From a virus: a DNA stretch of 31,269 nt. Of this stretch, positions 17,854 to 26,828 are shown piece by piece. Numbering within the stretch: the first letter of the stretch is position 1; each line of letters begins with the position of its first letter. Under the pieces are notes generated by a model. The model searched no databases, was not told the origin of the DNA, and was given only the letters and a program-made list of their open reading frames with translations. A program made the translations under genes and the position numbers. The stretch spans positions 1 through 31,269 of the IMG/VR virus record IMGVR_UViG_3300028837_001967; one strand, written 5' to 3'.

Positions 17854-18035
17854 CTTATTCTCCTCATTAAATTACTACGTGATACAATGACATATTCGCC
17901 ACTGTCAAGTTTGACCTCGATTTGATTTGATTCGTTTCCAACTATCACAATCGTACCAGTCCGCCAGTGCCGTTTGATGTCATTATTGCCGTAGTGCAAC
18001 ATCACCCGCACACCTGGTTTTGGATTAACTATCAT
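17850..18035 (-). CDS. Small SH3/KOW-like beta protein
   Basis: 61 residues from the ATG at 18035, which overlaps the previous stop (AAATGA) and has GAGGGA upstream. Alternating hydrophobic strands with PKPGVRVML and GTIVIVG look like a small SH3-like barrel (KOW or Tudor type), and the basic C-terminus could bind nucleic acid. A longer frame from 18071 is less likely, as it lies inside the preceding gene. Confidence 0.55.
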   Translation of the reverse strand: MIVNPKPGVRVMLHYGNNDIKRHWRTGTIVIVGNESNQIEVKLDSGEYVIVSRSNLMRRIR

Positions 18036-18874
18036 TTCGGATATTCCCTCACTCGTAAACCAGCATCCCAATAATCCATATTTGCACCGTTCGGATCATG
18101 CCTGTACACGCCATTTTCCTTCGCCCAGACTGTGCCAAGCTGTTTAACGAATTTCGGTACTCCCGCTTCAACGCATTGATCCCGCACAGACCGTACCCAA
18201 TCTGGATGTATTGGACGCGCTCCCGGACCCGATTCTCCGCCGACTATTACCCAGTTTATATTTTTTGCAATGTGTGACTCAATATCAATCCTCTCAAGCA
18301 ATGGTTCCATACTCACAAACCGCACGGCTGCCGGAATTTGTGATAATACCGCAATCCGCTCGTCTGCTGTTTTCTGATCTTCACCCGACACGCCGAGCCG
18401 GAGATTTTTTGGTAATTTTTCATCTTTCATTTTTTTAGCAATCGCTAATCCGAATGCGCTTGATCCTGTAGTTGTTTCAGCGGAATCACAAACATAACGC
18501 TTACTATCAATAACTTCGTCGAAATACTTTTTAGCTCTTTTAATTCGTTTTGTTAAAATTTGAAATATGTGATCTTGAAATAGATATATAACCGCCATTA
18601 CATTATCAATAAACCAAAATGGCACATCCTCATGGAAAAAATCACTCATGCTGCACACGAACACCATTCTCGGCTTTTTCCAATGCAGTGGTTCCTGGAG
18701 TCGCTCAGAATGTAACGTAACCCGAAACGGATCGTCTTTCGGATATCCGAATCGTCCCGCTAATCGCTTCGCCATCCGCTCGGCATAACAATTTCGGCAG
18801 CCTTCCGAAACTTTCGTACAGCCGGTTACAGGATTCCAGGACTCATCAGTCCACTCGATTTTTGTCTTTGCCAT
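18032..18874 (-). CDS. DUF5131 (phage Gp37/Gp68) three-Cys protein
   Basis: 280 residues. The N-terminus carries the family's signature GCTKVSEGCRNCYAERM (C19, C26, C29), a three-Cys motif like that of radical-SAM-related proteins, within EWTDESWNPVTGC. Later conserved parts include CSMSDFFHEDVP, QILTKR, VGGESGPGARP and a C-terminal VKQLG. Many phages carry it; the reaction is not settled, though DNA-directed or SAM-dependent chemistry has been suggested. Start has GGAG. The partner protein that sometimes accompanies it (TcmP) is not seen here. Confidence 0.85.
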   Translation of the reverse strand: MAKTKIEWTDESWNPVTGCTKVSEGCRNCYAERMAKRLAGRFGYPKDDPFRVTLHSERLQEPLHWKKPRMVFVCSMSDFFHEDVPFWFIDNVMAVIYLFQDHIFQILTKRIKRAKKYFDEVIDSKRYVCDSAETTTGSSAFGLAIAKKMKDEKLPKNLRLGVSGEDQKTADERIAVLSQIPAAVRFVSMEPLLERIDIESHIAKNINWVIVGGESGPGARPIHPDWVRSVRDQCVEAGVPKFVKQLGTVWAKENGVYRHDPNGANMDYWDAGLRVREYPK

Positions 18875-22411: not shown

Positions 22412-22912
22412 TTAAACCTTTCTCATTTGAATATATGCGTAAGTTAAATGATCTAATATCCAGCGTTCTAATACCGGGCGTTTGTGATTAATAAAAACAT
22501 GAACGTCATATTTAACCCTGACGGACTTTAAGAAACCCCGGATTGCTTCTGGACTAATCCGAGTCCAGTCCGGTAAATTAAATAATTCATTTTCTTTTAC
22601 TTCAATTACTAAAGCTTTAAAATAAAAAGAGCTTAATGATTCTAATTTCCTTTCTGTATTTTTCCTGTCTTTGCCGACATAGCTTAATAAATCGCTTAAT
22701 TGCTTACGCTCTATTGTTACCTTATTTTCCATTCCCCTGATACTGTAATCTCCATGCTTCAAACTGGTATGAATTATCTTTAACTTTCTATTGCCGTTGC
22801 CTTGAAAAAGAGGATTACGTTCACGGGTGTCAATTATTAACTTGAACCCGGGCGGAATAGGCGTTGGCTTGTAACCTACAATTTCTTTATGAAGCTTTTT
22901 TATTTCTAACAT
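22412..22912 (-). CDS. ERCC4-type nuclease
   Basis: 166 residues from the ATG at 22912, inside the 3' end of the upstream gene; a longer frame from 23050 would overlap that gene entirely. It shows the XPF/ERCC4 nuclease core: DTRERN (D28), HGDYSI (D55) and the signature ERKQLSD (E68, R69, K70, D74). A lone nuclease domain without helicase or HhH parts, as in phage members. It would cut branched or flap DNA in replication or recombination. Ends two bases before the next gene. Confidence 0.8.
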   Translation of the reverse strand: MLEIKKLHKEIVGYKPTPIPPGFKLIIDTRERNPLFQGNGNRKLKIIHTSLKHGDYSIRGMENKVTIERKQLSDLLSYVGKDRKNTERKLESLSSFYFKALVIEVKENELFNLPDWTRISPEAIRGFLKSVRVKYDVHVFINHKRPVLERWILDHLTYAYIQMRKV

Positions 22913-23114
22913 ATGCTTTTCTTCTTTCTCTAAGCTGTTCTGCTTCTTTGCGACATTTTTCTTCATCAACACAATCATCGCAGATCTCAGCATGGTATTC
23001 ATCAAATGAAGCATATTCACCACAACATTCACACAATCGGTCTGTATCACGACCGGTACGCCCGTCTATGGCTTCCTGGCGAGCTTCTTCACGGATGCTT
23101 TCGATATCTGACAT
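22887..23114 (-). CDS. Cys-rich small acidic protein
   Basis: 75 residues. CECC and CDDC pairs about 18 residues apart, with a His between, give a treble-clef or zinc-ribbon-like site; the N-terminus is acidic and the C-terminus basic and helical. GGAG precedes the start. It overlaps the ERCC4 gene start by 26 bp. Function unknown, nucleic-acid or protein binding inferred. Confidence 0.6.
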   Translation of the reverse strand: MSDIESIREEARQEAIDGRTGRDTDRLCECCGEYASFDEYHAEICDDCVDEEKCRKEAEQLRERRKAYVRNKKAS

Positions 23115-24408: not shown

Positions 24409-24713
24409 TCTTGCCCTTTCATACGTTTTATTTTAAAATAATAATGACCACCTCGTACTGATTTTTGCCAATAGAATAGCCAAAACATAGGAGTATTTCT
24501 TAGTGAGACGATTATGTCCTCATTGCCACTCCAACCTGCTGTATGCAACTCTAAACGTAATACTCGTTTACCCGATAATTTATAATAGTTCTCTGAATAC
24601 CGCCATTCCTGTTCTATAAAATCAAGCAGAGCGAGAACGCTATCCCACTTTAAAATATCCCATTGTTTAATTTTATTTAATGTATTTTCAGAAGGATAAT
24701 AGGGTTCATTCAT
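24405..24713 (-). CDS. Conserved hypothetical phage protein
   Basis: 102 residues. Motifs PSENTLNKI at the N-terminus, HTAGWSGNEDII in the middle and RGGHYYFKI at the end match a small family I have seen in phages and plasmids, of unknown function. Soluble, Trp-rich. Linked to both neighbours by ATGA overlaps. Confidence 0.6.
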   Translation of the reverse strand: MNEPYYPSENTLNKIKQWDILKWDSVLALLDFIEQEWRYSENYYKLSGKRVLRLELHTAGWSGNEDIIVSLRNTPMFWLFYWQKSVRGGHYYFKIKRMKGQE

Positions 24714-25078
24714 TTCTCTTTTACCTCATTATCTATCTCCGGCTTAATGAAATGCCCAGAGAGGATTTTTTTGATTGCTTTGGTATCAAAATCGTGTGCT
24801 TTTTCACCAGTACCAATGTTTTTTACTATGCAAGATGAAAACTCGTGGCATATTTCTATTTCTCGTGCTATTTTATTAAGATCAAGTGCATCAATATCAG
24901 GTATAGTTTTCTGCCGTTGTTTGAACAGGTCGAGAAATCTTTCCAGTGTTTTAATCTCATCCCCGATTGCATGACATACGTCATCGCTATATTTATGGTA
25001 GTCTTTCTCTAACCAGAATTTGTAAGACTCCTCGCATTTTGCAATCCGTTTCTCAGCTTCTTCAATTAAATCTTTCAT
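24710..25078 (-). CDS. Helical hypothetical protein
   Basis: 122 residues from the ATG at 25078, which has GGAGGCGG just upstream; a start at 25117 would read through the hairpin. Helical and acidic with Cys and His scattered, not in a zinc pattern. No family recognised. It is the first gene after the structured RNA region, and a 12-bp hairpin sits 12 nt before its start. Confidence 0.5.
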   Translation of the reverse strand: MKDLIEEAEKRIAKCEESYKFWLEKDYHKYSDDVCHAIGDEIKTLERFLDLFKQRQKTIPDIDALDLNKIAREIEICHEFSSCIVKNIGTGEKAHDFDTKAIKKILSGHFIKPEIDNEVKEK

Positions 25079-25090
25079 TCCGCCTCCATT

Positions 25091-25122
25091 GCGGGATGCC
25101 CGCCCCTCAACGGACATCCCGC
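25091..25122 (-). promoter_or_regulatory. 12-bp hairpin before the ribosome site
   Basis: On the minus strand GCGGGATGTCCG pairs with CGGGCATCCCGC (one G-U) around an 8-nt loop. No T-run follows, so it is not an ordinary intrinsic terminator. Its base is only a few nt from the GGAGGCGG ribosome site of the next gene, so it may shape translation or protect or process the 3' end of the upstream RNA. Confidence 0.6.
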
Positions 25123-25145
25123 TATTTTACGATGTATGTGTTTAG

Positions 25146-25278
25146 TGGCACGGGCAGGATTCGAACCTGCACACTAAACATTTGCTCGATATTTAATAAG
25201 CGTAATGTCAATTACGTCGAGTGGGTCAGTGTTTAATGCACCCTTGTACTGCGTCTACCAAAATTCCGCCACCGTGCC
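25146..25278 (-). tRNA. Aberrant tRNA-like RNA, leucine-type D-arm
   Basis: 133 nt. A perfect 7-bp acceptor (GGCACGG with CCGTGCC), TG at 8-9, a D-arm that reads like tRNA-Leu (GGCGGAATTTTGGTAGACGC) and a perfect T-arm (GCAGG, TTCGAAT, CCTGC), then A73; CCA is not encoded. But about 79 nt lie between D-arm and T-arm, against about 30 in a long-variable-arm tRNA. I find no normal anticodon arm there. Instead CGTAAT/ATTACG, CTCGA/TCGAG and ACACT/AGTGT nest as hairpins. It may contain an intron or be a tRNA mimic rather than a working tRNA. Confidence 0.7.
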
Positions 25279-25949: not shown

Positions 25950-26645
25950 TTAATTTCTGCCTATTGCAAGTTCTTCCTTTTGATAGATTTCTATACCGGG
26001 AATGTTTCTTTCTCCATTTGCAATAGCATGTTTAATGAGACCGTGATTTGCAGAAAGAAATTTGCGTGGAATTATTTCATGATCTGTAATTTCATAAGTC
26101 CACTTTTTACGAACCGTACTCGAAACTTCTTTAAAATTCTGCGTCTTTGCCCTGTGTAAACTCTTAATGTTATTTTCACTCCTTTCTCTTTGTTCTGCTA
26201 TGTCTGTCTGAAATTTCTCTGTATTTGTACCAACTTTGCTTAAATTACGTAGTCTTTGAAGATCCCGCGCCTCTTGCTCCCGAACTAACCTCTCAGCTTC
26301 TAATTTTCTCTTTTCACATTCGCGCTCATAACCGAGAACTTTTTTTCTCATGGTATTGTTAATCTCATCAATCGCACTGATATAAGGTTTGACAAATCCA
26401 TTGACCTCTCTGATGAAGTTCTGGGAATTGACAATGGTGCCCTTGCGCCTTGCTTCAAGCTCTCGCTTAAGAGTGCTGATTTCTTGTAATCTTAATAATA
26501 CTGCCTCTTTCCCGGGATCATCAACTATTATCAATCCCTCAACATTTCCCCTGAACTCGCCAAGAATGTCATTTAGAATCTTGGCTGCTGAATCAAAATC
26601 TTGTATTGTAAGTTTCAATTCCTGGATTTTAGTAATTGCTTCCAT
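25950..26645 (-). CDS. Coiled-coil recombination-module protein
   Basis: 231 residues. Long Glu/Arg/Lys coiled coil (about 60-160), then a compact C-terminal domain with KKWTYEI, IPRKFL, IKHAIANGERNIPGIEIY. This C-terminal pattern is common in phage proteins encoded beside SSB and recombinase genes; function unknown. GGAG precedes the start. Confidence 0.6.
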   Translation of the reverse strand: MEAITKIQELKLTIQDFDSAAKILNDILGEFRGNVEGLIIVDDPGKEAVLLRLQEISTLKRELEARRKGTIVNSQNFIREVNGFVKPYISAIDEINNTMRKKVLGYERECEKRKLEAERLVREQEARDLQRLRNLSKVGTNTEKFQTDIAEQRERSENNIKSLHRAKTQNFKEVSSTVRKKWTYEITDHEIIPRKFLSANHGLIKHAIANGERNIPGIEIYQKEELAIGRN

Positions 26646-26660
26646 TTGTGTATCTCCTTT

Positions 26661-26828
26661 TTAGTTAGGTTGTGCTTCTAATATTGCCCTGTAAGCATTA
26701 TAAAGATTTGGGTCCCTTGCTTTTAAAGATTGTTCAGTAGAAAAAGTTTTAATGAAATTGTCATCAGATAAAAACCTTAATAAAGCTCTACGTTCCTCGT
26801 TTGTTAAAATAACCTTGTAAACTATCAT
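26661..26828 (-). CDS. Short hypothetical protein
   Basis: A 55-residue frame filling the gap between the coiled-coil and ATPase genes. GAGG lies 11 nt upstream of the ATG. Helical, mixed charge, no motif. Kept because of fit and ribosome site. Confidence 0.45.
   Translation of the reverse strand: MIVYKVILTNEERRALLRFLSDDNFIKTFSTEQSLKARDPNLYNAYRAILEAQPN

Follow-up and report, generated by a model that had tools for sequence, protein, structure and literature searches.

The window, by which we mean the whole 31,269-base IMG/VR virus record analysed here, encodes a real tRNA-like RNA with an enlarged centre and no anticodon arm. Comparison with viral contigs and named phages makes it nearly certain, so far as sequence can tell, that such elements form a class of their own and that this class has lost decoding. 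Our preferred reading is that the window element belongs to a widespread, phage-borne class of non-decoding RNAs built on a tRNA core, which act in trans as competitors or bait for host proteins; as a whole we hold this tentatively, at slightly less than an even chance. If it is right, tRNA finders and Rfam have overlooked a common class of viral RNAs, one that lies unannotated in model phages such as SPP1 and phi3T, for which deletions and RNA sequencing are everyday methods. The class would also offer a tractable entry to the decades-old question of what the stable RNAs other than tRNA in phage tRNA clusters (T4 species 1 and 2) do, and to the ways in which phages may exploit host proteins that read tRNA and yet make no tRNA.

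A tRNA core with its anticodon arm replaced

The window carries phage genes for a major head protein, terminase, portal, helicase, topoisomerase-like protein, Sak4-like protein and integrase; the minus strand also encodes a DUF5131 protein (18032-18874) and an ERCC4-domain nuclease (22412-23050). The tRNA-like element lies on the same strand (Table 1). As originally predicted, its acceptor stem and T-arm are perfect, its D-arm has a leucine-type loop, and the anticodon and variable arms are replaced, by a centre that we measure at 80 nt. U8 and G9 follow the 5' acceptor strand, the D-loop (GAATTTTGGTAGA) has 2 nt more than usual before its GG, and the elbow bases U48 and A15 are both present; the acceptor, D-arm and T-arm are those of a canonical tRNA (Leu). 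Beyond the 3' acceptor strand the sequence continues with A73 and then CTAAA. Judged from this anatomy, the predicted RNA cannot read codons.

Table 1. Parts of the tRNA-like element, in window coordinates
Feature	Positions	Strand	Remarks
Whole tRNA-like RNA, 133 nt	25146..25278	(-)	G1 = 25278, A73 = 25146; from sequence and class comparison
Acceptor stem, 5' strand GGCACGG	25272..25278	(-)	7/7 pairs with 25147-25153
tRNA-Leu-type D-arm GCG-GAATTTTGGTAGA-CGC	25251..25269	(-)	from sequence; 3-bp D-stem GCG/CGC
Centre of 80 nt replacing anticodon and variable arms	25171..25250	(-)	between D-stem and T-stem; ends in U48 (25171)
S1, 5' strand GGGT	25240..25243	(-)	pairs with 25223-25226 ACCC; anchored pseudoknot test p 0.03, weak alone
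S2, 5' strand ATTAAACA	25230..25237	(-)	inside S1 loop; 8 bp with 25173-25180, p 0.02
S1, 3' strand ACCC	25223..25226	(-)	anchored pseudoknot test
Inserted hairpin CTCGA[CGTAAT-TGAC-ATTACG]...TCGAG	25185..25221	(-)	fold
S2, 3' strand TGTTTAGT	25173..25180	(-)	ends 2 nt before U48; class rule z 9.6 and 10.8, window p 0.02
T-arm GCAGG-TTCGAAT-CCTGC	25154..25170	(-)	5/5 pairs, canonical T-loop
Acceptor stem, 3' strand CCGTGCC	25147..25153	(-)	7/7 pairs
A73, then CTAA	25142..25146	(-)	CCA not encoded; A73 74/88, C74 81/88 in subclass

Standard tools pass the element over. ARAGORN called no tRNA at this place, and Rfam gave no match in the window at gathering score, RF00005 included, with just two sub-threshold chance matches at E<=1. 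A generic scan for acceptor stem, T-arm and D-motif nevertheless returned exactly one match in the window, the element itself, where 0.13 would be expected per dinucleotide shuffle; in 82 kb of related phages the same scan returned none. BLAST of the element against phages and E. coli gave no match, and neither a sibling with its acceptor sequence nor any other close relative was found in viral contigs. The phage relatives reached through the topoisomerase-like protein (L002-L005) lack any such element, and a search with the major head protein turned up no relatives. Since the minimum-energy fold is also unremarkable alone (z -1.3, not significant), the case rests on comparison.

A class of related elements in phages

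A pattern running from the leucine-type D-arm to the T-arm at a spacing too long for a normal tRNA (GGTAGACGC-N58..88-GGTTCRAWTCC) matched more than 120 viral-contig stretches with 58-88 nt between the arms, which, like all our counts of class members, is a lower bound; a control pattern with the first word reversed had 47 matches in total. Part of the conservation seen in the D-arm and T-loop comes from the search patterns themselves, but the acceptor stem was left out of the pattern. It was paired 7/7 at tRNA spacing in 77 of the 123 matches listed, and in 92 of them at any spacing, versus 0/47 controls on either count. Acceptor sequences vary across members, AGTCAGG/CCTGACT being common (51/88), and the persistence of pairing across differing sequences argues against decay or a chance fold. 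The suggestion in the original prediction that selection acts on the tRNA ends and elbow and not on decoding, as in a tRNA mimic, is thus supported by well over 100 related elements with paired acceptors of different sequence and no anticodon arm. A nuclease decoy, another option of the original prediction, would be compatible with these findings.

Members of this first subclass have an acceptor plus T-stem stack of 12 bp in 88/88 cases, A73 in 74/88 and C74 in 81/88, and seldom encode CCA. One acceptor was common to 44 dissimilar centres, the arms staying constant and the centre changing fast, and no convincing recurrent sequence motif emerged among the centres. In several viral elements (L063, L125, L030, L095, L103 and L149) the D-loop holds an extra hairpin, placed between A15 and the GG. 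Strongly similar GC-rich centres (CGGGC..GTTC..CTCGTTG..ACGTCAC..GAAGGCGAAACACGTAT) occur in contigs assigned to Terriglobia, Chlorobiaceae and Desulfobulbus (L130, L161 and L168, respectively), despite the distance between the assigned phyla.

A look through annotated phages led to SPP1, where gene 9 and scaffold gene 11 flank an unannotated element whose T-loop is TGCAAAT; U-G-N-R-A is a common T-loop in RNAs other than tRNA. The pattern built on TGCAAAT matched more than 120 viral stretches, again a lower bound, and a scrambled-loop control matched none. The T-stem of this TGC subclass has 6 bp, acceptor and T-stem together come to 13 bp in 104/107 members, and A73 is present in 62/104 (60%). 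Some centres are homologous between the subclasses (L359 with L085; L353 with L012 and L092), which points to one class with exchangeable arms. Unannotated members lie in SPP1, phi3T, SPbeta-like phages, Listeria B025, Lactobacillus phiJL-1, Leuconostoc Ln-9 and phiLM33_01, Enterococcus EFDG1, a Brochothrix phage, Flavobacterium FL-1 and others, with centres of up to about 140-155 nt in B025, EFDG1 and the Brochothrix phage. A short match in Felix O1, lying between tRNA genes, was rejected as a member.

Strict patterns matched 0/399 Bacillota genomes and 4/297 Bacteroidota genomes; the class is viral and phage-borne. Rfam 15 has no family for it: the 40 loci tested gave generic tRNA only, and a minority of members pass the RF00005 gathering score as such. 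We found no description of the class in the openly licensed literature, a body of work that leaves out most subscription journals and preprints, so that an earlier account may exist.

Structure of the centre

An anticodon arm (5 bp, 7-nt loop) can be drawn in 3 of 166 non-redundant members, against 4.0 by chance; among the normal-length Leu-like tRNAs of the same loci, 19/28 have one. U48, though not asked for in the pattern, is present in 162/166. The five bases ending 2 nt before U48 pair upstream in 53% of members of one subclass versus 16% expected (z 9.6), and in 56% versus 16% in the other (z 10.8), and the signal is gone a few bases away. This stem (S2) stands at the place of the tRNA-Leu variable arm. 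Its 5' strand begins before nt 18 of the centre in 71/118 elements, and thus usually starts too early to leave room for an anticodon arm. Homologues and compensatory changes had been proposed as a check on the original prediction, and both turned up: the class itself, and covariation of S2 in several families (in family A6, two pairs changed on both sides; in A3, one pair occurring as GC, AU and CG). The S2 rule extends to phages outside that test, with GTACGGG/CCCGTAC in SPP1, 9 bp in B025 and 6 bp in FL-1 and the Brochothrix phage; phi3T and Gut-P1 fit it poorly.

In several families a further stem (S1) crosses S2 to make an H-type pseudoknot. Across the class as a whole S1 gives a weak signal (mean z 0.42 over 118), and an unanchored pseudoknot score gave a weak excess only; the pseudoknot is supported in some families and is likely in the window. 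There, S2 is an 8-bp stem, AUUAAACA/UGUUUAGU, ending 2 nt before U48 (p 0.02; 0.009 over offsets 1-3), which crosses GGGU/ACCC (anchored p 0.03). The significance of S2 here is moderate, and in this one sequence a nested ACACU/AGUGU stem is a competing alternative. The nested hairpins first proposed for the centre are not significant as a minimum-energy fold; a variable-arm-like stem, often in a pseudoknot, is the better description, with one inserted hairpin besides. With its Leu D-arm, paired acceptor, T-arm, U48, S2 and missing anticodon arm, the window element fits the class plan.

Gene context and possible function

About 23% of the elements have a true tRNA gene no more than 500 nt away. 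There is no fixed partner gene, since neighbours vary around the loci (ORF calls here were mechanical), and late-transcription activators (PHROG 36, 248 and 2198) are frequent neighbours in the TGC subclass. Gut-P1 has two copies. Directly beside large elements in phiJL-1 (L380:2385-2452), ctfjg026 (L250:630-702) and SPP1 (L244:1308-1370) lie tRNA-like RNAs of 60-70 nt, which have an acceptor-like stem and a T-arm and no anticodon arm. In phi3T and SPbetaL4, both SPbeta-like, the gene-poor region that holds the tRNA-like element also has a DUF3800-VIII RNA (RF03075; L375:3863-3928 and L376:3657-3722, respectively), which follows that element at about 1.2-1.4 kb.

In our preferred reading these RNAs would be transcribed within phage operons. 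Given the kept acceptor, D-arm, T-arm and U48, and in this subclass A73, tRNA-type maturation and an elbow are expected: host RNase P would cut the 5' end, RNase Z the 3' end, the CCA-adding enzyme would complete the RNA and the elbow would form. In place of the anticodon arm, a variable-arm-like S2, its 5' strand in the anticodon region, would close a hypervariable and often pseudoknotted centre. With lower confidence, we suggest that the mature RNA may occupy host proteins that read the tRNA elbow and acceptor, whether in processing, modification, charging or tRNA-directed defence, and that the fast-changing centre could tune specificity or escape. Action in trans is probable, and is suggested by indifference to gene order, the lack of a fixed neighbour, two copies in one genome and small companions that are nearly pure core; decoy or competition as the mechanism is a possibility to which we lean less than halfway. 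Counting against the preferred reading are the lack of a linked gene, the weak class-wide S1, the moderate S2 of the window and its nested competitor, arms partly imposed by the search patterns and the absence of a promoter signal, which might be expected of a stand-alone RNA gene.

The element could instead punctuate mRNA in cis, being excised by RNase P and RNase Z so as to separate or stabilise cistrons, with the anticodon absent to spare translation. The retained processing determinants and the mid-operon place in SPP1 agree with this, as do an irrelevant centre sequence and the lack of an own promoter, for which there was no enrichment at the elements; terminators behind them are few. However, the elements show no preference for gaps between co-directional genes (74% versus 73% of other intergenic gaps in one comparison, 55% versus 60% in another), 12/70 and 13/69 lie in convergent gaps, some in Ln-9 and phiJL-1 stand behind the last gene, and the conserved, covarying S2 would need another reason, all of which make a role in cis unlikely. 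Downstream of the window element, between it and the start of the ORF at 24710-25117, is a perfect long hairpin (GCGGGATGTCCG...CGGGCATCCCGC; 25080-25125, minus strand), which has no T-run and is thus not an ordinary terminator.

There are two further alternatives. One is a pseudo-tRNA charged by LeuRS, which would withdraw this enzyme or supply leucine for a non-ribosomal reaction. Bacterial LeuRS hardly reads the anticodon, and the Leu-type D-arm, the prevalence of A73 in the first subclass and the rightly placed, variable-arm-like S2 would suit such a substrate; we nonetheless consider it improbable, since A73 is far from general in the TGC subclass, the acceptor/T stack there has 13 bp and acceptor sequences vary widely. 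The other is a natural tRNA scaffold, whose ends only mature and protect the RNA and whose centre is a separate payload (an inhibitor, sponge or guide). It would account for the many dissimilar centres on one acceptor, for homologous centres on different arms and for centres reaching about 155 nt, but the centres have no recurrent motif, S2 is tied to the tRNA core and is not a free payload, and nearly centre-less companions exist, so that we give it a small chance.

A decayed or intron-bearing tRNA-Leu, the latter also raised by the original prediction, is very improbable: the arms are clearly of tRNA-Leu type and Rfam scores a number of members as generic tRNA, but acceptor pairing is kept over many sequences, the spread is wide, anticodon stems are not enriched, the centre has its own class-wide S2 position and covariation and not the halves of an anticodon arm, and a search of viral contigs for close relatives with a normal anticodon arm, of which the window element might be a decayed copy, found none.

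Comparison with known systems

Several known RNAs resemble the present class in idea only. Bacterial Y RNA (YrlA) is a tRNA mimic used outside translation (cited in PMC12282133), but its ends and Ro-binding stem lie elsewhere; neither the window nor 40 other loci gave an Rfam match to it, and no TROVE domain was found in the subset of window ORFs whose proteins were scanned. tmRNA likewise combines tRNA-like ends, pseudoknots and the lack of an anticodon arm, but is far larger, contains a reading frame for its tag and has a conserved D-loop of a different kind; neither ARAGORN nor Rfam called one, apart from one chance match of 10 bits where 84 are needed. The Bacillus cereus pseudo-tRNA tRNA-Other resembles a tRNA and has no working role in translation (PMC3399842), but it is a host gene with a Trp anticodon and no enlarged, pseudoknotted centre. 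The yjdF riboswitch also has a tRNA-like fold (PMC9142559), but is an mRNA leader with an equivalent of the anticodon stem, whereas the present class has no fixed downstream gene.

Listeria phage CKA15, which is P100-like, makes an unexplained and extremely abundant transcript (26,236-26,727) that its authors suggest is an siRNA or Y RNA (PMC12282133). We considered it as an expressed member of the class and rejected it, because the relative A511 has a ROOL RNA at that place; judged from the A511 sequence, the CKA15 transcript is probably ROOL. The A511 match (L385:6197-6748, equivalent to DQ003638.2 26196-26747, minus strand) scores 87.5 bits (E 5e-18), a little below the gathering score of 99.1.

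Nearest in kind is T4 rnaC (species 1 RNA, with rnaD), a stable phage RNA of 139 nt that adjoins tRNA genes and whose function is unknown. It has the T-arm end of a tRNA (CCGGG-TTCGAAT-CCCGG), no anticodon arm and a hairpin just before the T-arm, and is expressed late (PMC9697503). The window element appears from its sequence to be of the same kind, a phage RNA with a tRNA T-arm and without an anticodon arm. rnaC differs in having no Leu-type D-arm, an acceptor of only about 5 bp, no U48 and no evident pseudoknot, and we do not claim it as a class member, since it has neither the Leu D-arm nor the full acceptor. In an evolution experiment with a T4-like phage on a semi-permissive host, all lines changed the same base of rnaD, the neighbour of rnaC (PMC12685909); this is consistent with such RNAs taking part in host interaction, and is silent on the present class directly. 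More speculatively, and with the balance against it, the class may consist of rapidly diversifying counter-defence or host-takeover RNAs that engage tRNA-binding host proteins, with T4 species 1 RNA as a distant functional analogue.
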